From a virus: 35,730 bases of DNA. Position 1 is the stretch's first letter. Every line of letters starts with the position of its first letter. The DNA lies in IMG/VR virus record IMGVR_UViG_3300009174_000250, positions 1-35,730 of that record; one strand, written 5' to 3'. Made by a program: the position numbers and the translations under genes. Below are positions 9,149 to 34,393 of the stretch, one piece after another. The notes beneath the pieces were generated by a model. It was not told where the DNA came from and ran no database searches. It saw only the letters and a list, made by a program, of their open reading frames with translations.

Positions 9149-9886
9149 TCAATCATTGTCTAGAATTTTCCCTTCGGGAGATACGTTTGTATAATTATCT
9201 CTCCCGCCACCTGCGTTTTGCACATCCCAATGATTATCATGAAGTAAATCCCAACACCATTCGCGATGTAATGAATCCATATAACCGTAACGCGGAGCAT
9301 TACCTTTTCGAGGTGTATTATTTCGCCTCCATGTATCAGGTGGTACAAAAGGAAATTCACCTTGGCAAGGAAGACTGTGTGGATAAATTTTGTACCACGT
9401 AAACTTGGCAAAATTTATCTGCTCAGGATTCTCTATTGTAATGAATTCGTCAAAATTAGCGCACCATGGTGTTGGGGTGAAGATTGCTTCTTCATTATAA
9501 TTATTCGGCAACGTATGTGTTGCAATTGCATTAAGGAAATTGTCAAATATTTTATTAATGTGTGCAGGAAGTTCATCACAACGGGTCAAACCTTCACCAT
9601 CTAATATAGGATGCTTGAGGATTTCTGCTTTACTAAGGAGAGGTTTTAAAAGACTGTACCAATCATTAATCCATCTTTTCCAAATCGGATCACTCATTAA
9701 TGTCCACGGATGAGTATTCTCAAATTCAGTCATAAGGGTTTGAGATATACACACAGTTAGTTCATTATTAAATGCGTTTTTTAAAAAGTCAACCAAAGGT
9801 TTTATAAAAAATTTTTCGATTTCCGCAGGAGTAATATTTTCTTTGATATCGATTATATGATGAGGGCAGAATGTGACTTTAGCCAT
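9149..9886 (-). CDS. Putative effector of a two-gene ATPase system
   Basis: A 245-residue protein that I cannot assign to a named family with confidence. Residues 1-160 are soluble and mixed, with LTVCISQTLMTEFENTHPW near 43-61 and a Trp-rich stretch PIWKRWINDWY at 67-77. The C-terminal ~45 residues carry EWCWDLLHDNHWDVQNAGGG (209-228) followed by Y-x-NVSPEGKI (232-241). A pattern of W-D-x2-H, HWDVQ and N-V-x-P-x-G-x-I resembles the ends of polymorphic-toxin and colicin E3-like RNase domains; this is a recollection of motif shape, not an alignment. The ATG is one base after the ATPase stop codon, so the two are probably translated together. It is very AT-rich compared with the phage genes. 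Inferred role: the toxic arm of a defence module that the ATPase controls. Confidence 0.7.
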   Translation of the reverse strand: MAKVTFCPHHIIDIKENITPAEIEKFFIKPLVDFLKNAFNNELTVCISQTLMTEFENTHPWTLMSDPIWKRWINDWYSLLKPLLSKAEILKHPILDGEGLTRCDELPAHINKIFDNFLNAIATHTLPNNYNEEAIFTPTPWCANFDEFITIENPEQINFAKFTWYKIYPHSLPCQGEFPFVPPDTWRRNNTPRKGNAPRYGYMDSLHREWCWDLLHDNHWDVQNAGGGRDNYTNVSPEGKILDND

Positions 9887-9887
9887 G

Positions 9888-11270
9888 TTATTTTTCCCAC
9901 GGAGCTTTTAAAGAGTCATTTTTTGAGATTCGAGCTTTTATTATTGAATCCGCTATCTTAGTCGATTCATCAAGAAAACCATCAGGGTATTCTGGGAACA
10001 TGCCATTTTCATCAATATGGAATTGTCTTATGGTTGCCCCTTCCGTTTCTTTCTCGGAAGAGCTTTCAACGAAGGCTATATTGATTTTATCCTTTAAATC
10101 TACCTTTTCAATTACTCTAAGGCGGAGTCGGCTAATCAGTTCAGCGCTATGGGTTTCAACAATAATACGCCTTTCATCTGCAATAAAAGCTAAAAACAAA
10201 TCAGCCAAATTTGCCGCACTTGAAGGGTGTAAATGAATTTCTGGTTGTTCTAATAAAATCAAGTCACCAGGATTGCTCAATAAACACATTAATATAATAG
10301 GAATTACTTGGGAATAACCAAACCCAACATCAGAAATTGTCACATCAGCATTGCAATCCTTATTTTTTAGATTAATTTTATAAATTAAATCACCTATTCT
10401 TGATGGTGTTATTTCTTGGCTTAACCCCATCATTCCAATGCAGATATTTAGAGCTTCTTTCAACTTATACTCTTTTCCTTGAAACTTTACGGACTCATTT
10501 TGCCGCGCCCACAATACATGGGCGGCATTCTCCCCAGATGGGAGTAACTCATATGCTACCTCAGTGAAGTGCACATACGCTCTTTTTGGTAAAGCTCTCA
10601 ATGGTCCAAGGTATTTTATATTGCGTATGTCCTCAATTAATGTGTCGGTTAATTGCTTTTCACTCTTGAAGAAGAACTCTATTGGAAATGTAACTTTATT
10701 CACGCTGGTTTTATCATTACTTGTTTTTTCTATTAAATTGAACGAAAAAACAACTGGATAAAAAGAAGATAAAACAGTCTTCGTATCGCTTATTCTCATT
10801 CGTTCATTTTCAAATAAAGGTGACATAAAATCAGGGGAGTCTTTCTTTTTTAATGTATGATTTAGAAGGTTTATTTTTTTATTTTCCCCATCCTCATTAT
10901 GCATTTCAACTTTATACTCACTCACAATTGGCAAGTAGTGCTCTAATTTCTTAGCATTGCCAAATGAAAGATTAATGCGACCTTTTCCTGAGCGGTTTGA
11001 GACTAGAAACTCATATCCAATACCAGCTCTATTTACACTAGGCATTGAAAATGAAACTTCTTTTAAGTTAGAAAAAGTGAGGTATTCCCCCTCTAACTCC
11101 AACTCGCCACCATCTCTTTTTATTAAAGTTTGCTTCAACAATAAAAGACTCTGAAGTATAGAGGATTTACCACAGCTATTTTTACCCGCAATAACAGTGA
11201 GATCATTTATTTTAAATGAATCTAATTTTTTAAAGGATTTAAAGTTTTTTAAAGTAAGTTCTTGAATCAT
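9888..11270 (-). CDS. OLD/DUF3696-like SMC-type AAA ATPase
   Basis: A 460-residue ABC/SMC-type ATPase. Motifs in order: RecF/SMC-like start LTLKNFKSFKKL (5-16), Walker A GKNSCGKS (29-36), signature SDVGFGYSQV (313-322), Walker B LILLEQPEIHLHP (337-349) and the switch VETHSAEL (371-378). The C-terminal DENGMFPEYPDGFLDE (420-435) is typical of the DUF3696 group (COG4938). No Toprim nuclease domain follows, so it is not a full OLD nuclease and probably acts as sensor or switch for the next gene. ATG 11270 has GGAG eight bases upstream; the open frame reaches 11303. It is AT-rich and lies in the tail-fibre to FI interval, where P2 carries fun(Z). Arrangement recalls ATPase-effector pairs such as PARIS (AriA-AriB), but the partner differs. 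Confidence 0.88.
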   Translation of the reverse strand: MIQELTLKNFKSFKKLDSFKINDLTVIAGKNSCGKSSILQSLLLLKQTLIKRDGGELELEGEYLTFSNLKEVSFSMPSVNRAGIGYEFLVSNRSGKGRINLSFGNAKKLEHYLPIVSEYKVEMHNEDGENKKINLLNHTLKKKDSPDFMSPLFENERMRISDTKTVLSSFYPVVFSFNLIEKTSNDKTSVNKVTFPIEFFFKSEKQLTDTLIEDIRNIKYLGPLRALPKRAYVHFTEVAYELLPSGENAAHVLWARQNESVKFQGKEYKLKEALNICIGMMGLSQEITPSRIGDLIYKINLKNKDCNADVTISDVGFGYSQVIPIILMCLLSNPGDLILLEQPEIHLHPSSAANLADLFLAFIADERRIIVETHSAELISRLRLRVIEKVDLKDKINIAFVESSSEKETEGATIRQFHIDENGMFPEYPDGFLDESTKIADSIIKARISKNDSLKAPWEK

Positions 11271-11646
11271 AAAACACTCCGTGAATAAAAAGTTAACCAT
11301 CAACCTTGCTTAACTCGAAAATAAATTTCACTTAATATCGAAATTTTGGTTTTTTACGATATTTTTAGTTAATTTCACACAAAGCACCATCATTCCGCAG
11401 GCACTAAGAAAATATTAAACGTTATTAAGACATTTTCAATATTTTTTATTAATTACATGTCCATCTATGCTTCATTCTATGTAAATAGGATATGCAGAAT
11501 GAGGTCAAGTTTACCAGACATTTTAGAACCATGTTAGTGAGTTTAGGAGAGTAAAAGCAACATCCGTTCCTTACTCAAAGCCGACTGTCAGATAAAATTG
11601 TGTTCTATCCGCGAAAGCTGTCAGTCCAAGTCTGAGCTAATACAGC
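11271..11646. other. AT-rich intergenic region with inverted repeat, upstream of the ATPase operon
   Basis: No supported gene. It must contain the promoter for the 11270 operon. AATATCG (11334-11340) and CGATATT (11357-11363) form a perfect 7-bp inverted repeat with a 16-base spacer, 64-93 bases upstream of the ATPase start, a plausible operator. A gene G-type fibre chaperone would be expected here in a P2 layout but none is present. Confidence 0.5.
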
Positions 11647-25398: not shown

Positions 25399-26436
25399 AT
25401 GAGCAAACGCAACCGGGGCCACAAAAACACCCAGCCGATCACGCAGAAACAAAGCGGCGCGCAGCATGTGGAGGCGTTCACCTTCGGCGACCCGATCCCG
25501 ATGCTGGATCGGCGTGAAATCCTGGACTATCTGGAATGCAGCATTGTTGACCGTTGGTACGAACCGCCGATCTCTTTTAGTGGCCTGGCGAAGACATTCC
25601 GCGCGGCGGTGCATCACAGTTCACCGATCACCATGAAGCGTAATATTTTAGTGAGTATGTTCAAGCCGCACCGGCTGCTGTCAAAACAGGATTTTAGCCG
25701 CTACGCACAGGATTTTATGGTGTTCGGCAATAGCTTTATTGAGGGGCGCTATAACCGGTTGGGCGGTCTGATGAAGCTGGCCCCCAGCCTGGCGAAATAT
25801 ACCCGGCGTGGTGTAGAAACTGACTCTTACTGGTTCGTGCAATCGTGGATGGAGCCGCATCAGTTTGCGGAGGGTTCTATTTTCCACCTGTTGGATCCCG
25901 ACATTAACCAGGAGATTTACGGCGTTCCCGAATACCTTTCCTCGCTTAACTCCATCTGGCTTAACGAGGCGGCGACGCTGTTTCGCCGGAAATACTACCT
26001 CAACGGCAGTCATGCTGGCTTTATCCTGTACATGAACGATGCTGCGCACAAGCAGGAGGATATCGACAACCTGCGCAAAGCGCTGAAAGAGTCGAAAGGG
26101 CCGGGTAACTTCCGCAACCTGTTTATGTATGCGCCTGGCGGCAAGCCGGACGGGTTACAGTTGATCCCCCTGGCCGAAGTCGCGGCAAAGGACGAGTTTT
26201 TGAACATCAAGAACGTGACTCGTGATGATCAGCTTGCGGCCCAGCGCACACCGCCGCAACTGATGGGGATTTTACCGAACAATACCGGTGGTTTTGGTGA
26301 TGTTGAGAAAGCTGCGCGTGTTTTCGCGATTAACGAGCTGGCCCCGCTGCAAGAGCGGCTGTGCGAGTTAAACGAGTGGGCAGGGGAAGAGGTGATCAGT
26401 TTCAAACCCTATGAGCTGCTGAAATCAGATGTTTAA
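25399..26436 (+). CDS. Q: Portal protein gpQ
   Basis: A 345-residue portal protein (P2 Q is 344). The family segments MVFGNSFIEGRYNRLGGLMK (near 110-129), YGVPEYLSSLNSIWLNEAAT and RTPPQLMGILPNNTGGFGDV (about 285-304) are present. The start codon abuts the P stop codon. Confidence 0.95.
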   Translation: MSKRNRGHKNTQPITQKQSGAQHVEAFTFGDPIPMLDRREILDYLECSIVDRWYEPPISFSGLAKTFRAAVHHSSPITMKRNILVSMFKPHRLLSKQDFSRYAQDFMVFGNSFIEGRYNRLGGLMKLAPSLAKYTRRGVETDSYWFVQSWMEPHQFAEGSIFHLLDPDINQEIYGVPEYLSSLNSIWLNEAATLFRRKYYLNGSHAGFILYMNDAAHKQEDIDNLRKALKESKGPGNFRNLFMYAPGGKPDGLQLIPLAEVAAKDEFLNIKNVTRDDQLAAQRTPPQLMGILPNNTGGFGDVEKAARVFAINELAPLQERLCELNEWAGEEVISFKPYELLKSDV

Positions 26437-26601: not shown

Positions 26602-27897
26602 CTATTTGAATTTTGAAATGCATGGATCAGACGTTTCGCTGAAGTCCATCATAACCCAATCATCATCCTGACTTTCTTCTTTTAAAAGTGTTATTGATAG
26701 AGGTAACCTTCCTGAGTTAAGCTTGTTTGTAAGAGCATTGATGACATATTTATGTTCATTTATAAAATCGGCTTGATTCACCGACCCAGTCATAAGTTCT
26801 AATATTGCTCTTGATGATAAGGTTATTTTTCCATTAGACATATTGAATGCTCCAAATTTAGATGGACTAGGAAGGAAGTTGTTATGCTGTAATAGACCTA
26901 AAGAATTTTTTGCTGTTCGCTGCGGATGAGGAAAAGTACCTATGGCTTTCTTTATTTGACAATGCAACTTTTCACAAAAAACGGCCATGTCATTTTTCGC
27001 GTAAAAAACATCCAATCCAAATGCGTGCGTGCTTGAATTGCTCAAATGATTTTGATGATGACTTATGTGCATTATAGCGACGAAATCAAGTCGATCATTT
27101 TTAGAAAAGAAATGATTAACTATATCTTTCACACTAAAATTTGTTACTCCGGATTTATATTTTTTTCTTAACTCATTGCAATCCCCATCGCAAATAAACA
27201 CTCCTTTAATACCTTGGTAACCTGATTTTTTTAACTGTTTATTTTTGTTTGTTAGCGAGTTATAAATAGGGTTTTTATCAATTGAGTAAATGCTTGTGTA
27301 ATCTAAATACCCTCCTGTAGTATAATTACTTGATGGGTTATAACTGATTGATATATTCGCAATCTCGTTTTTTACGGTGATACTTTGATGGGATGAAACA
27401 TCATTTACAATACCATCTATAAAATCAATTAGATATTCTTTTATGAATGAATGAGTTAGGTTTTTTGGGGGTAAGGATATTTTTACTTTCTTTGATCCTC
27501 GCTCTCCTTTTAATTCACCAGAGACGCGAATGTCAAAGCCATTTAAATACTTCAAACCTCTTCTTTTGGAAAAAAGGCCAAGCTCATTCATGAAATAGCG
27601 ATAATCATTGTTTTTTTCCTGATCACTATCAGAAACTGTAGTGATGTCAGCAAGAAATTCAATTTCATTATTGGTAAAGGTAATGTCCGGGTTGGTAGTT
27701 CCACCGTGGTTTTTTTCATGGGTGACATTGCCTATTTTAGAAAGCAAATTTAATAGAAACACCTCCCAATAGAAAGGAAAGCTATCGATCTTACCAGAAT
27801 TTAACTTTCCTATTAGTGTGCTAATTGCCTCTTCTGACATAAATAAACGATTTTCATCAATCATTTTCTGAAATGTTCGCCTTGAAAAGAATGGCAT
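26602..27897 (-). CDS. Accessory protein with possible PD-(D/E)XK-like N-terminus
   Basis: A 431-residue protein that I do not recognise. Near the N-terminus: YWEVFLLNLL (Glu45), then TTNPDITF (Pro70-Asp71) and EIEFLADITTV (Glu80, Asp84). This spacing recalls a PD-(D/E)XK nuclease core, but the expected lysine is Thr86, so activity is doubtful. The middle has FICDGDCNELR (about 234-244). No membrane helices or signal peptide. Very AT-rich, clearly unlike the adjacent phage genes, and in the Q-A interval where P2 carries tin and old. ATG 27897 is preferred to GTG 27903 because AGAGG lies eight bases upstream. It is convergent with Q and seems to have its own promoter; a single-gene phage-exclusion function is inferred from position only. 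Confidence 0.75.
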   Translation of the reverse strand: MPFFSRRTFQKMIDENRLFMSEEAISTLIGKLNSGKIDSFPFYWEVFLLNLLSKIGNVTHEKNHGGTTNPDITFTNNEIEFLADITTVSDSDQEKNNDYRYFMNELGLFSKRRGLKYLNGFDIRVSGELKGERGSKKVKISLPPKNLTHSFIKEYLIDFIDGIVNDVSSHQSITVKNEIANISISYNPSSNYTTGGYLDYTSIYSIDKNPIYNSLTNKNKQLKKSGYQGIKGVFICDGDCNELRKKYKSGVTNFSVKDIVNHFFSKNDRLDFVAIMHISHHQNHLSNSSTHAFGLDVFYAKNDMAVFCEKLHCQIKKAIGTFPHPQRTAKNSLGLLQHNNFLPSPSKFGAFNMSNGKITLSSRAILELMTGSVNQADFINEHKYVINALTNKLNSGRLPLSITLLKEESQDDDWVMMDFSETSDPCISKFK

Positions 27898-28198
27898 TTT
27901 CACCTCTAAACTAAGTTGGATTTATAAAACAGTTAAGAATTCTAACAGATAATGAATGAAATATCTATTATCCTAGTCTACCCTCGTTGGTTATGGTAAA
28001 CGCTATAATAAAATTACCACATTATTCGTTGCTGACTGTAAAATATGTTCGATTTACAATGTGGAATATTACCATGGAAATTATAAGCCAATATACAATA
28101 ATTAATTTGATTGCTTTATGGTGCGCGATTTATTCATCGTAAATTGCTTTCCCATGTTTAATTTATTATTAATAGGCATATGTACAGTGGTATGCTGC

Positions 28199-28274
28199 TG
28201 TGACATGTCACGGGCAATTTTTCCTATGAAAAAGACACGTCACACGCCTATTGAAAATAAAAATGTGACGTGGC
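28199..28274. repeat. Three iterons TGTGAC(A/G)TG(T/G)C
   Basis: TGTGACATGTC at 28199-28209 (+), TGTGACGTGTC at 28234-28244 (-) and TGTGACGTGGC at 28264-28274 (+), 35 and 30 bases apart. Repeats of this size and spacing are typical of protein-binding clusters. Confidence 0.7.
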
Positions 28275-28327
28275 AGGATTGCTTAACGTTACCCGGCATA
28301 CATTGCGTTGTCACTCTTCTGTAAAGC

Positions 28328-28370
28328 GTGTTTTTTATCTGGTTTGATCCAGATTTCAAATAAAAAACAC
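28328..28370. repeat. Nested palindrome
   Basis: Outer arms GTGTTTTTTAT (28328-28338) and ATAAAAAACAC (28360-28370) enclose ATCTGG/CCAGAT (28337-28342, 28349-28354). The T tract comes before and the A tract after the stem on both strands, the reverse of a terminator. Confidence 0.75.
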
Positions 28371-28497
28371 TGCATATCCCAAGTGCAACAATCCGCATAC
28401 TTTCCTGCATGGCTAATCATCCTTTCAAGCTACAGCCATCAAGGTTTGACGCGTTATTCCTACTGCATAAAAAGTGAATTCTTAAGTATGCAGCGCG

Positions 28498-28516
28498 GGG
28501 GCGGGGGGGACGGCAC
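28498..28516. other. G-rich run, weak cos candidate
   Basis: The 19 bases GGGGCGGGGGGGACGGCAC share GG..G..G.GGGGA..GCAC with the P2 cohesive end as I remember it, about 13 of 19 positions. Against this, given the gene order the P2-like end should read on the minus strand, while this reads on the plus strand. Low confidence. Confidence 0.25.
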
Positions 28517-29094
28517 GGATTAGGGGATCGATGGGGATCATTTCGCCTACCTCATGCCCCATAAGGTCGTCTCTGTTGCCTGATCAGATTTCTACGGGGA
28601 GATCAGCTTCAAGGTGGGAATCGTTGACGTAAAGAAAAGTGCTCCACTATGTGTTGTAGAGGCGCTTTGGTGAGGACTGTAATGAACTGGGGTTTATGTC
28701 GGTCTACTGCGGCTTTTCATTTTTACGAGTATTAATTCAATTCGATTGCGTCATTAAATTAGTTCAGGTTTAACTGGCAGCGTTCTGTGTTAGAACACGA
28801 TTAAACCAGACGGTCGACAACGAGCGATGTACCGACATTGTGTTATGTTCATCACTTGACATCGATAGAAAGTCAAAGTGCTGAAGTATCAAAAGTATGT
28901 GGACTAAAAGTAGTATGCTTACTCTAGGATTACCACTTCAAGTGGGGCATCCATTAAGATAAATTTATCACCTTCTGAATGTAGTCCTCAGTTTGAAGAA
29001 AAACAGCACATTGTAAGTTGGTGATCTGCATTTCGCTGTCAACGCGTCTAAGGTCCAGCTTTTCATATGTCGGCTGGGAGAAGGAATTTACGGG

Positions 29095-31374
29095 ATGACC
29101 ATGCAAGAGCTACAAGCACGATTCAAGATTTTTTACGCATCCATTACATTGCGTTTTTACAGCATAAGGATTCGGTTTTACCAATGGCGTCTCAGTCATG
29201 GACTGAAGCTTACGACATTCTTGCTGTTGGGAGGGATTCTACTAAGTGTGTTAGGGATACCTCTACTCCAGCGTGTGGTCGGAGTCTATTTCAGCAATAG
29301 CGAGCGTTTGGCTGCATTAAGAACCCTTCTTGGCGGCACCGGATCGGCGCTAATCGGGGCAACAGCTATTGCGTTCTCGCTCGTTGTTTTTGCAATGCAG
29401 ATCAATGTTGAGCGAATGCCGCATGGTTTATTTAGGAGGCTAAGTGCCGACAGAAGGCTACTTGGATCATTTCTTGGTTCTTTCTTTATAGCCCTCATTG
29501 TTGCTTCTATGTCTATGATTAAAAATGGAGGTTTTGCGGTTCACGCTATTGTTGTGGCTACGTGGGGAACACTCTTAATCTTGCTACTGTTTCTCTACGC
29601 ATATCGACGTGCCCTCCAACTTATCAATCCAATCGAACAACTTTCCATCATGTCGAGCGCTGTCCGACGTGATCTGCATAAATGGAATCATCTCGCAGAT
29701 AAAGCCGTAATCCTGATGAATGAAAAGTCGCCTCCCAATGTCGGTAATGACGGTGAAGAAATTCATTTTAATGTCGCCAAGGCTAATTTCTTCAAAGTTA
29801 ACGCCGACTGGACTAAAACAGCGGACCAAGCAATTCACTATGCAATTTCCTATGCAAAGCGCTTTGCGGAACAAGGTGACTATGAAGTTACTGAATACGC
29901 CTTTAACTGCATTATGCTCGTCAATGCTACCTATTGTGCAACAAAGCACGGTACCTTTGTCGGACATAATCCCTTCTACGAAATACCGGATGCTACTGAT
30001 GGTTTTATTAATACATCGTTAGAGCTAATGCGGCAGACAATGCAAACTGCATTGAGTAAGGGAGACGAACGACTGGCGGGAAGCACGCTGCGTGGTATCG
30101 GCGGCCTTTATGGCGTGTATCTGATGATAGAGTATCCGGGACGTGACCAAAGTAAGCACCATGCATCGCTTGCGGCGAGTTACATGGGATCTGCAGTCGA
30201 ATCTATTGCTCCACATAACATGCCAGACCTCATGATGGAAGGTATCCGGCTGATGGGGAAGGCGTCAATACTAGCGCTGGACCACACCGACCCGAGCGGG
30301 ATTATCGGCATGGCTGGGAAGATTGCTACCCTATCAACCGTCGGTGTATTCAATGCAAATCATCAACCCGTGACGTTGACGGCATTCGAGCAGTTTGCCG
30401 ACATCACTTACCATCTTCTTGTAAAGGGAAAGCATAATATCGATTATCCGATCGGCCAATTGCGTTCGAATGTGACCGAATCGGCGAAGCGTTTTTTGGA
30501 ATCTTCGGACACGCCATTCAGTTCACGACATTGCAATACGCTAGGACCTTATTTTTCAAGCACAAGCTTTTCATCACTCCGGAGTAGACTCACATCTCTG
30601 GTCAACAAGTTAATAGAGGCGCCTGTAGACAACACACGTGCTGTTGAGCTTATTGCCAACATTGAGACTTGGGCTGACCGGCTTAACGCTTCTCAGAAGG
30701 AGCTTCTTTTACTTGCCGTACAGAAGCGATCCTCTTTCATCTTTGATATTATCTCCTGGGCTGTTGGGATTTCAGAGCTGCTGAATGCACTATCGAATGC
30801 GCCTGCCTGCTCACCGTATCTGAAAGATAAGCTTAGAAATCATGCCGACTGGCTCATTTCGACACTGTCGTGGCTTCCGGACGACAAGGAATCAGTAACT
30901 TTCGTTGAGAATTACTCGCTTACCGAGAATCTGGTCGAGGCGGCATTAGACGGCTTTGATCGTAACTGCCTAGAGTTCTATGAAAGTTGCAAGCAGCTCT
31001 TGATTGGTTGGGCGAAGAAGGGCGGTAGACATGAATCTGGCCAGGGAATTCTGGAAAAATCAGTGCAAGGGCTAGTAGCCCTTGTTATAAGTGAAGGGTC
31101 TGCTATTGCAACAACTGAGCTGAAATCCCAGTTCCGAGCAATGCTCGCCAGTGATAAAGCCCCCGCTATTGAGGTACGAATTCTCGCCGCTACTCGTCTT
31201 GTAAAGAGCACCAACGAGCTTCGACACCATGCCGCTAAGCATTCTCGAATCGATTACATACTCGCAAAACTGAATCACACAGATGTGAGTACACTGATAT
31301 ATGAGATGGCAGGAATTCTCTCGCCAGATCTTCAGTTTAGTACTCGCCCCGGTAAGGGCGAATCTGAGAAGTAA
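29095..31374 (+). CDS. Accessory membrane protein, DUF2254-like N-terminus
   Basis: A 759-residue protein with four predicted membrane helices (about 38-58, 80-103, 122-142 and 150-170) and a long soluble cytoplasmic C-terminal part of ~580 residues rich in helices. The segment GSALIGATAIAFSLVVFAMQ (83-102) followed by a LFRRLSADRRLLGSFLGSFF stretch recalls DUF2254 membrane proteins. GGGAGAAGGA precedes ATG 29095. Base composition is closer to the phage genes than that of the gene at 26602, so the two were probably acquired separately. It sits in the tin/old position between Q and A and is transcribed against the early operon. A superinfection-exclusion or abortive-infection role is inferred from its place; no enzymatic motif is visible. 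Confidence 0.82.
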   Translation: MTMQELQARFKIFYASITLRFYSIRIRFYQWRLSHGLKLTTFLLLGGILLSVLGIPLLQRVVGVYFSNSERLAALRTLLGGTGSALIGATAIAFSLVVFAMQINVERMPHGLFRRLSADRRLLGSFLGSFFIALIVASMSMIKNGGFAVHAIVVATWGTLLILLLFLYAYRRALQLINPIEQLSIMSSAVRRDLHKWNHLADKAVILMNEKSPPNVGNDGEEIHFNVAKANFFKVNADWTKTADQAIHYAISYAKRFAEQGDYEVTEYAFNCIMLVNATYCATKHGTFVGHNPFYEIPDATDGFINTSLELMRQTMQTALSKGDERLAGSTLRGIGGLYGVYLMIEYPGRDQSKHHASLAASYMGSAVESIAPHNMPDLMMEGIRLMGKASILALDHTDPSGIIGMAGKIATLSTVGVFNANHQPVTLTAFEQFADITYHLLVKGKHNIDYPIGQLRSNVTESAKRFLESSDTPFSSRHCNTLGPYFSSTSFSSLRSRLTSLVNKLIEAPVDNTRAVELIANIETWADRLNASQKELLLLAVQKRSSFIFDIISWAVGISELLNALSNAPACSPYLKDKLRNHADWLISTLSWLPDDKESVTFVENYSLTENLVEAALDGFDRNCLEFYESCKQLLIGWAKKGGRHESGQGILEKSVQGLVALVISEGSAIATTELKSQFRAMLASDKAPAIEVRILAATRLVKSTNELRHHAAKHSRIDYILAKLNHTDVSTLIYEMAGILSPDLQFSTRPGKGESEK

Positions 31375-31524
31375 AGATTGAGTCAAAGCGCAATATTGAA
31401 CGGCCGCTTCTGCTATCAAGCTGGCTGTTCGATTGGGTATCACTCAGGTCGCAAAAGTGTGAACTTAAATATGAGCGAATACACGCCAATCTACCGCGGC
31501 TGATATTCTCGTCTGACGAAGGTT

Positions 31525-31869
31525 CTATAGAGTTATCAGCATTAGCTTTTTGTATCCGGCCGTCTGCCAGCACTGTGAGTCACCTTGCATACAGCAGCCA
31601 GCTGGATCACCAGGTAAGGTGTCACCACACTTCCTGCAACTACTTTTATGTAGTTCAGCCATTTGCTTATGCAACAGCTTGTTGTCTTGCCGGATGAGGC
31701 CGATCAGATATTCCATTATCTCGTAAGGTTCCCGGGCAATCCTGCGTTGCTGGCAACCTTCCAAAATCATTGCCATTTCCTGACTGTCTACGCGCAGAGT
31801 GAGCGTAGTGATGCCATTCGCCTTGTCACGCTGGCGCTGGGCGCGTTTACGTTCTGCTGATGTGGTCAT
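31525..31869 (-). CDS. Small zinc-finger/ribbon-type protein downstream of gene A
   Basis: A 114-residue protein frequent after gene A in P2-like prophages of enterics. The N-terminus TTSAERKRAQRQRDKANGIT is very basic, followed by a segment (TTLTLRVDSQEMAMILEGCQ) that resembles a short beta strand and helix of DNA-binding proteins. The C-terminus has cysteine pairs CRKCGD and GCC (about 80-95), probably binding zinc. It starts directly after the A stop codon in the same operon. Function unknown; DNA binding is inferred. Confidence 0.85.
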   Translation of the reverse strand: MTTSAERKRAQRQRDKANGITTLTLRVDSQEMAMILEGCQQRRIAREPYEIMEYLIGLIRQDNKLLHKQMAELHKSSCRKCGDTLPGDPAGCCMQGDSQCWQTAGYKKLMLITL

Positions 31870-31870
31870 G

Positions 31871-34393
31871 CTATTCCTCCGATTTCTGTTTTATTGCTTC
31901 TTTTCTCAGGTGGTCGCCAACAAGGCGTGTTTGCTTTGGTATCTGCCGATGCCATAGCGCAGTGAGCCGCGTCAGCGCGGTAGTGGCTGTCGGAGTTGAT
32001 TGCTGGTATAGACAACCATCTGCCCGCGCTCGATAGCGCTGACCGTCGATAGTGACCGTTGCCCCCTTGGCTACCGATTTCAGAATGCAGGCATCCAGAC
32101 TGAAACCAATGGACTCGGCGAAGCTGCCGATCTGGCGCTCCAGCTTGCTAAGTGGTCGCTTGATTGTGTTAATGCCAGCGCTGGCCGTGGATGGCCGGTG
32201 ATTTTCAGCTTCCTGTCCATCATCCAGACTGAAATAAGCCAGGGCGCGTTGTTCTTGTTCGTGGCGCACTTGCTCCCGCCACAGCTTAATGCTGGCCGTA
32301 TCTAGTAATACCGACCTTATTGGTGGCAGATCTAGCCCCTCGTCAGGTAATGCGAAGCCCTCGGCGACGGCCATAAATGGATTTTTCACTGATTCTGGCG
32401 GTGTGCTGCGTATTCGCCGGAGCAACAACCGCCGTTCTTTGTCGGTTATTCGCTCAAAATCGAGGTTTTCAGTCGGTGGAGGTGGCTCCTTAACCTGTTT
32501 GGTTTTTAGCCTTCCCGGCTGCACCGTACAGTTATTGACAGAACTCCGAGAGGGCGCAGGCGCGCCCTTAAGGTCAACGGCCAGGTCAACGGAACGGGCA
32601 GGAACAAACTTCCATTCCTTTATGCGGGTGATGATCGGGGTATCGATACCAACCGGGGGAGAAAATACACCCCGGATCCGGATCACGTCTTCGCCATAGT
32701 CGTTGGTGGCTTCTGCCTGCCCGTAATAGGTGCGGACAATGAGATCATCACGTCGGACAAAAGGGCCACCCTGGGCGTTGACGTATTCAGCCCAACGGCC
32801 ATCGTCGGCTGCATCATGCACAGCGGCAAATTCGACACTCAGGCCAAGTGCGGTTTCATGGTCAGCCATGCGGCGCAATTCGCGGTAGACCGTCACCGGC
32901 GCGCCGCCTATAAACTGAAACTGTCGGATACGCCAGCGTGCCGCCCAAGCTGATACGGCGGGAGCAACTTCTTTCAACTCTTTGCCGCTATCGTCGTCCA
33001 GCTCGCCATCGAGCGCGTAACCGTCGATGTTCTTCGAGATATATTTGGCGATGTAACCGGTGGCGCTGCCTTTTTCCGGATCTATAGCTTCGGCGTGGAA
33101 ACGGGCTTTTCTTGAGCGTTCGCTGTAAAGTTCGTCAGCGTCTTCCGCGCAGGCATAAGCGCGCAGGATGTTGCGCACCTGACCAACTACCTCGGGCCGC
33201 ATGAATAGCAGCATATGCCAGTGAGGCGTGCCGTCACCGTGCGGCTCAGCCACACGGATCCCGAAGATACGGAACCCTTTACGATGTAGCTTGGCGCGTG
33301 CGCGTTCCCACACATTACGCAGATAGCGCTGCGTTTCGTCCGGGCTGGCTCCACACCACTTGCGATTGCGGTGGCCATGTCTGTTGGTGGCGTGGAAGCG
33401 GGAAGGGGCTGTCAGGGTGTAAAACTCCCCCACGAACCCCATTTCGTTGCAGATATCCTCAAAACCACGAATGCGGTTCATTAGCTCGCATCGGCGAATA
33501 GCTGGATTTGCAACGCTGTGATCGTACTTGTCGATCAGCGATATGCGGTTGCCTTCGTCGTCTTCCAGTTCCATCGATTTTAAGAATTCACGGGTGCGCC
33601 GCTTCTGTTCCCGCCAGTCGCTTACGGTTGGCCGACTGGCATAGGGTGTTGCTTTTTTGCTGACGTGACCGATGGCAATATGCAGGTGCTCTTTCCAGCG
33701 GTCAGCATGGCGTCGCAAGCGGCGCAGCCACCAATCTTCTGACATCATGCGCATGACTGCCGGTGTGGTGTTCTCCACTGTCATTTTCCAGCTGGCTACC
33801 TGGTAGGTTTTCCACAGTGGCGGCTTTTGCTTAAACCTGCGGGTGAGCGCGGCAGCCCCTTTATAAAGCGCCATAACGTTCAATAATTCAGAAGACCGGC
33901 CAGTCTCTTCATCGACTACGCTCAGTTCTTGCTTGATGACAGCGGCGATATCTTTCGCCAGCAGTTCAATATCAGCTCGCCCAGCGTCTGGCAGATGGTT
34001 AAAGCGGTGGCACAGGGCGGCATCGCTGTTGTTATCGGAGGCGCGGTATTTATCACTGACGAGATCAAGCCGTGGCAATACACGCTCAACGAAGTTTTTC
34101 GTCAAGTATGCATTGCCCCGGCGGATGCCCTGGGATTCTTCCAGCTTGTTGATGTGGTAGCGCACATCGCGTTGGATCAGCTGTGGTTGTTGTTCTAACA
34201 GATGATGTGCGCGAAGGGTGGCGGCGACCTGCTCTTCGGTCTGTTTATCGATCTCGGGCGGTCGATTTAATGACGAGTCGATAACCGGAAGCGGAGCATT
34301 CCATGAGAATGCCCATTCAAAAGCAGGCGCGCCGCTACCAGGGTATGGCAGCGGTGGGGTGGGAGCGTGACGGCCACCGGAATTTCTAGCCAT
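31871..34393 (-). CDS. A: Replication initiation endonuclease gpA
   Basis: An 840-residue rolling-circle initiator of the P2 A family (P2 A is about 761). The HUH motif is His391-Trp-His393 in GTPHWHMLLF and the two active tyrosines are Tyr447 and Tyr451 in GYIAKYISKNIDGY, the same four-residue spacing as P2 Tyr450/Tyr454. It nicks the phage origin, which in P2 lies within this gene, and starts replication with the host Rep helicase. The N-terminal ~230 residues are variable. It is downstream of the small early genes 34430-35535 on the same strand. Confidence 0.95.
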   Translation of the reverse strand: MARNSGGRHAPTPPLPYPGSGAPAFEWAFSWNAPLPVIDSSLNRPPEIDKQTEEQVAATLRAHHLLEQQPQLIQRDVRYHINKLEESQGIRRGNAYLTKNFVERVLPRLDLVSDKYRASDNNSDAALCHRFNHLPDAGRADIELLAKDIAAVIKQELSVVDEETGRSSELLNVMALYKGAAALTRRFKQKPPLWKTYQVASWKMTVENTTPAVMRMMSEDWWLRRLRRHADRWKEHLHIAIGHVSKKATPYASRPTVSDWREQKRRTREFLKSMELEDDEGNRISLIDKYDHSVANPAIRRCELMNRIRGFEDICNEMGFVGEFYTLTAPSRFHATNRHGHRNRKWCGASPDETQRYLRNVWERARAKLHRKGFRIFGIRVAEPHGDGTPHWHMLLFMRPEVVGQVRNILRAYACAEDADELYSERSRKARFHAEAIDPEKGSATGYIAKYISKNIDGYALDGELDDDSGKELKEVAPAVSAWAARWRIRQFQFIGGAPVTVYRELRRMADHETALGLSVEFAAVHDAADDGRWAEYVNAQGGPFVRRDDLIVRTYYGQAEATNDYGEDVIRIRGVFSPPVGIDTPIITRIKEWKFVPARSVDLAVDLKGAPAPSRSSVNNCTVQPGRLKTKQVKEPPPPTENLDFERITDKERRLLLRRIRSTPPESVKNPFMAVAEGFALPDEGLDLPPIRSVLLDTASIKLWREQVRHEQEQRALAYFSLDDGQEAENHRPSTASAGINTIKRPLSKLERQIGSFAESIGFSLDACILKSVAKGATVTIDGQRYRARADGCLYQQSTPTATTALTRLTALWHRQIPKQTRLVGDHLRKEAIKQKSEE

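Follow-up and report, generated by a model that had tools for sequence, protein, structure and literature searches.

What role does a long DUF2254-like membrane protein play in a P2-like prophage, and is its gene true cargo of the phage? We addressed this question in a window of 35,730 nucleotides (the whole stretch analyzed; IMG/VR record IMGVR_UViG_3300009174_000250, positions 1 to 35,730). The open reading frame of the original prediction, at 29095-31374 on the + strand, was recovered exactly: it starts with ATG, runs for 759 codons with no internal stop, and is preceded about 9 nt upstream by the purine-rich GGGAGAAGGAA, while a consensus scan of the upstream region returned no sigma-70 promoter. 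Comparison with two relatives (68-72% identical) revealed 172/124/389 differences at the three codon positions against L002 and 73/62/214 against L004. This strong third-position bias indicates selection at the protein level, and 29095-31374 is a real, intact gene. The protein matched none of the 5027 models of PADLOC-DB 2.0.0 at E 1, had no match in PHROGs and was sequence-related to no solved structure. Together, the reading frame, Pfam, AlphaFold and codon comparison nevertheless delineate a candidate defence gene whose product would combine a DUF2254-type membrane bundle with a HEAT/ARM-like solenoid.

Hydropathy analysis revealed four hydrophobic segments (residues 39-57, 85-103, 122-140 and 149-167), predicted to be transmembrane helices (residues 39-167; 29209-29595, +) and leaving about 590 residues on their C-terminal side, in agreement with the four-helix membrane anchor proposed earlier. 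Both termini and the loop between TM2 and TM3 are predicted from the charge distribution to lie inside. An alignment of 13 sequences showed that this predicted cytoplasmic loop (residues 102-119; 29398-29451, +) contains six invariant residues (Q102, N104, R107, F113, S117 and D119), and that conservation in the family is highest at residues 81-120, which cover the loop facing the solenoid.

Pfam analysis assigned DUF2254 (PF10011) alone, with residues 41-185 aligned to positions 9-161 of the 368-position profile at 28.7 bits, against a curated gathering cut-off of 28.8. All eight full-length family members scanned gave the same match (E ≤ 0.01, best 1.4e-7). The membrane part of DUF2254 is present, comprising four helices and a conserved loop after TM2, on which the profile alignment, hydropathy and the structural model agree; past profile position 161, none of positions 162-368 aligned. 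The assignment of the protein as DUF2254-like thus stood for its membrane third and failed for the latter half of the profile, which is replaced here by a solenoid of about 550 residues, longer than the entire Pfam model. To our knowledge, DUF2254 has no known role. When the membrane part was modelled alone (pLDDT 78), its structure matches were generic bundles, and none was a solved channel or pore clearly resembling it. The Orai channel and NINJ1 appeared among these matches at Z 8-10, mixed with unrelated helical bundles, and were rejected as relatives.

AlphaFold modelling from an alignment of eight family members yielded a mean pLDDT of 84.4 over the whole model and a pTM of 0.75. In this model, long N-terminal helices form the membrane bundle and are followed by about twenty paired helices, which make up a predicted cytoplasmic all-helical solenoid (residues ~208-759; 29716-31371, +), consistent with the long solenoid-like cytoplasmic part that had been anticipated. 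HEAT/ARM chains dominated the natural structure matches. Foldseek and VIA-align matches spread over PP2A-A, importins and designed repeat proteins, with Z up to 11.5, a range usual for helical models, so the solenoid appears HEAT/ARM-like in general and points to no single family. The predicted curved stack of helix pairs resembles natural HEAT/ARM proteins up to about Z 11, but identity is only ~8-12%, rmsd is high, and de novo designed repeats score equally well. As modelled, the resemblance is one of shape and not of relationship.

The genomic setting matches the earlier description of cargo in the tin/old interval transcribed against the early operon. The gene lies in the A-Q (old/tin) interval on the strand opposite to gpA, the replication endonuclease (31871-34393, -; PF05840, 1.5e-118), and to the orf91-like regulator (31525-31869, -; phrog_536, 6.4e-40; 85-92% in close relatives). 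The portal protein gpQ (25399-26436, +; phrog_68, 3.5e-163) forms the right border of the hot spot. To map the interval, we collected 79 gpA relatives from viral contigs and compared the 23 close ones by blastn between orf91 and gpQ. Only three pieces were conserved: the orf91 end (to ~31499), a block at 28199-28755 (70-87% identity in the 23 relatives) and gpQ from ~26424. The interval in this phage group therefore consists of two independent slots around a cos-proximal block, filled or empty separately. We call the block no more than cos-proximal because no match to the P2 cos sequence turned up, even with up to 3 mismatches allowed.

The 759-residue protein is encoded by the sole gene of the A-proximal slot (slot 1; 28756-31498, 2.74 kb), whose conserved left flank is the orf91-like regulator. 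This slot is empty in 4 of the 23 close relatives (L038, L040, L041 and L099), where the flanks are joined directly with 9-10 bp left; it measures 497 bp in L033 and holds unrelated cassettes of 1.25-3.7 kb in the remaining relatives. Five of nine representative slot 1 cassettes matched PADLOC defence families, namely Hp1/Hp2 (L028), RmrA (L029), PD-T4-7 (L030), a CBASS cyclase (L036) and retron NDT II-A (L105). Slot 2 of the prophage carries a 433-aa cargo gene (26602-27903, -; phrog_33687, function unknown; 33% G+C), and in roughly a dozen relatives this slot is around 90-140 bp long.

In E. coli P2-like phages, the A-Q interval is a hot spot of antiviral systems, several of which were shown to be active (Rousset et al. 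2022, PMC9122126). The gene studied here resembles P2 old/tin and the other A-Q systems in being a variable one-gene cassette between gpA/orf91 and gpQ, opposite to gpA and absent from relatives in which the slot is empty; it differs in that its product matches neither Old nor any other PADLOC family in sequence. A search for the same gene in other P2-like Q-A intervals gave a negative result: none of the 79 gpA relatives carries it, and its exact Q-A location is shared with no other phage found.

Elsewhere in the prophage, a second low-G+C cargo (9149-11303, -; 35%) lies between tail genes. It encodes a 471-aa AAA ATPase matching PADLOC NsnB (3.8e-63), HEC-03B and PDC-M55A, together with a 245-aa unknown partner, and is probably another defence pair. 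On its left flank the window carries host ptsG (1-1434, +), which matches a Serratia marcescens record at 90%; insertion of the prophage seems to have taken place immediately after this gene, and the record ends before int/C on the right side.

Relatives of the protein are scattered and rare. Carriers include a Rhodanobacter MAG (68%), P. putida (52%) and a Desulfuromonadaceae MAG (41%), and an Alcaligenaceae relative (72% across the N-terminal half) is split between two contigs with an integrase-core sequence at the break, probably an insertion element. Profile searches of sampled genomes detected a relative in 3/369 Gammaproteobacteria, 3/299 Pseudomonas and 2/399 Burkholderiales, so that the gene is rare everywhere, at 0.5-1% of genomes in three large draws. 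Some relatives lie in integrase-bearing islands, and a distant one is carried by pAQU1-type conjugative plasmids (profile E 3e-57). Annotated phage records contained no relative, and the DNA of 28000-31600 had no match in E. coli genomes.

Among viral contigs, scans with a single sequence or a five-sequence alignment returned no match; only the profile built from eight members reached relatives, on four contigs. The initial absence from other phages was thus a limit of sensitivity. One relative accompanies P2-like late genes, including a tail tape measure and a gpD 31% identical to that of this prophage (L121), and another a Mu-type transposase (L124). The other two contigs are also prophages: in L123 the relative neighbours a repressor-like gene and an early region with similarity to many phages, and the L122 record also carries an integrase. 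In the family tree, the L122 copy pairs with a copy from a BREX operon (L019), and the copy of the present prophage pairs with that of Rhodanobacter. These pairings are unlike the host tree and indicate that the gene moves.

Several chromosomal relatives adjoin known defence systems. In L019, a complete type III BREX operon (BrxF-BrxC-PglXI-BrxHI-PglZ-BrxA) is followed 10 bp after BrxA, on the same strand, by a relative, with GajA ~6 kb beyond. GajB and GajA adjoin the relative in L021, a decayed copy lies 2 kb from GajA/GajB in L025, and type I restriction genes with PDC-S14 and PDC-S26 lie directly upstream of the relative in L004. In the P. putida region, Qat genes are found farther away. 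Despite its position past BrxA, the gene is no known BREX component, and the other copies have no BREX genes alongside. No known defence system lay within 10 kb, in the sequence scanned, at five of the nine main chromosomal loci. A comparison of all neighbours against one another found no partner gene conserved across loci, the Pseudomonas islands sharing only regulators and a few unknowns, which suggests that the protein works alone or with host factors.

Other genes at these loci merit mention. A 165-aa protein of unknown family, shared at 40% identity, lies near both relative and Gabija in L021 (5288-5782) and L025 (12327-12824). A 1524-aa protein without a PADLOC match, encoded beside the Qat genes of the P. 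putida island (L110, 9991-14565, -), is possibly an undescribed large defence protein. The pAQU1-type relative (L108, 5501-10962) sits between traN and a HEC-05 gene with a beta-lactamase gene, a site that is probably an accessory-gene hot spot; it had no PADLOC match at 1e-5.

To assess this neighbourhood against background, the control consisted of nine fixed stretches of 20 kb, drawn from six of the relatives' genomes, with ORFs of at least 250 aa and a defence match threshold of 1e-30. Apart from three RtcR-type regulators, 0/86 control ORFs matched defence families, compared with at least 10/52 near relatives, a count that leaves out the HsdR of L004 (PADLOC 3.2e-30). The RtcR-type matches, which share an AAA domain, were rejected as defence genes and counted in a second test. 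Gene-level enrichment gave p 3e-5, or 0.003 with the RtcR hits counted, although genes of one operon are not independent; at the locus level, the association was 4/9 versus 0/9 in the control (p 0.041) in a small sample. An association of this kind, judged from gene neighbourhoods, can also flag toxins, genes that counter defence, or cargo in general.

Taken with the hot spot, the type III BREX, Gabija and type I restriction-modification systems adjoining relatives agree with the original suggestion of defence, and the gene quite probably has such a role. We give roughly even chances to a more specific reading, in which the protein is a stand-alone membrane-acting anti-phage protein with a solenoid sensor and a DUF2254 membrane effector. 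As a single-gene module carried in the A-Q hot spot, it would place its four-helix bundle in the inner membrane with both termini cytoplasmic, and the HEAT/ARM-like solenoid would hang into the cytoplasm. There the solenoid might bind either something made by the phage or host machinery that has been disturbed, and relay the signal by way of the conserved TM2-TM3 loop (Q102-D119). The bundle would respond by altering or breaking the membrane barrier, and the infected cell would halt before phage production. The joining of solenoid to bundle, the loop conservation, and the rarity, mobility and defence neighbours of the gene fit this sensor-effector scheme; sensing by the solenoid coupled to a membrane effect, as the model suggests it, falls a little short of an even chance.

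Membrane effectors are familiar in abortive infection, for example RexB and CBASS- or TIR-linked transmembrane proteins. The present protein resembles these effectors (PMC9122126) in being membrane-anchored in a defence locus, and differs in that a single polypeptide, lacking any recognised enzyme, would serve as both sensor and putative effector. The effector step is suggested by this architecture and by how other transmembrane defence proteins behave (PMC9122126); the predicted fold, with no clear channel or pore match, does not itself support it.

The main rival to the sensor-effector mechanism is superinfection exclusion, in which the protein would act at the membrane to keep the DNA of related phages from entering or replicating, without killing the cell and to the benefit of the prophage, not of the host. 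Cargo status beside the old/tin position, the membrane anchor and the presence of the gene in several prophage kinds fit this explanation, but copies also occur outside phages, in the BREX operon and in islands with restriction and Gabija genes, where excluding one phage kind is less obviously useful, and we regard exclusion as unlikely. Those same loci raise the idea that the protein assists or partners larger systems (BREX III, Gabija, type I RM), for instance as a guard active when they are inhibited. The copy 10 bp past BrxA in the same orientation and Gabija beside two other copies point that way; since the neighbouring systems vary by locus with no conserved partner, and the prophage copy stands alone in slot 1, this role is improbable.

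Two further explanations deny the gene a part in defence. The DUF2254 protein might serve ion balance or envelope stress as lysogenic cargo riding mobile elements, in keeping with the lack of a known DUF2254 role and with loci free of known defence neighbours (L002, L020, L022 and L005); the enrichment near defence systems over the control, and how well the gene fits a hot spot populated by defence cassettes, make this decidedly unlikely. A chance piece of host chromosome acquired by recombination, the case held to count against the original prediction, would account for the absence from all 79 P2-like gpA relatives and for a G+C content of 47%, versus 54-56% in gpQ and gpA. However, the slot has exact borders and holds a single intact gene with a conserved coding pattern and no other host gene, and four other viral contigs carry relatives; the empty-site comparison and these phage relatives largely refute a host fragment, which is extremely improbable.

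Returning to the sensor-effector reading, we tentatively extend it to the family: its members may represent a new immune protein that acts alone, its HEAT-like solenoid sensing infection and its DUF2254 bundle serving as a new kind of membrane effector, and that moves freely between prophages (P2-like, Mu-like and others) and islands with BREX, Gabija or restriction genes. A partial literature search, covering main texts, returned DUF2254 only in connection with knots and a Salmonella classifier and nowhere tied to defence, and the novelty of the link is accordingly provisional. With relatives whose slot is empty and a copy linked to BREX, the defence role can be tested directly. If protective, the gene would be a compact one-gene defence common to phages and bacterial defence islands, and, if the reading is true, this would be the first function for any DUF2254 domain.
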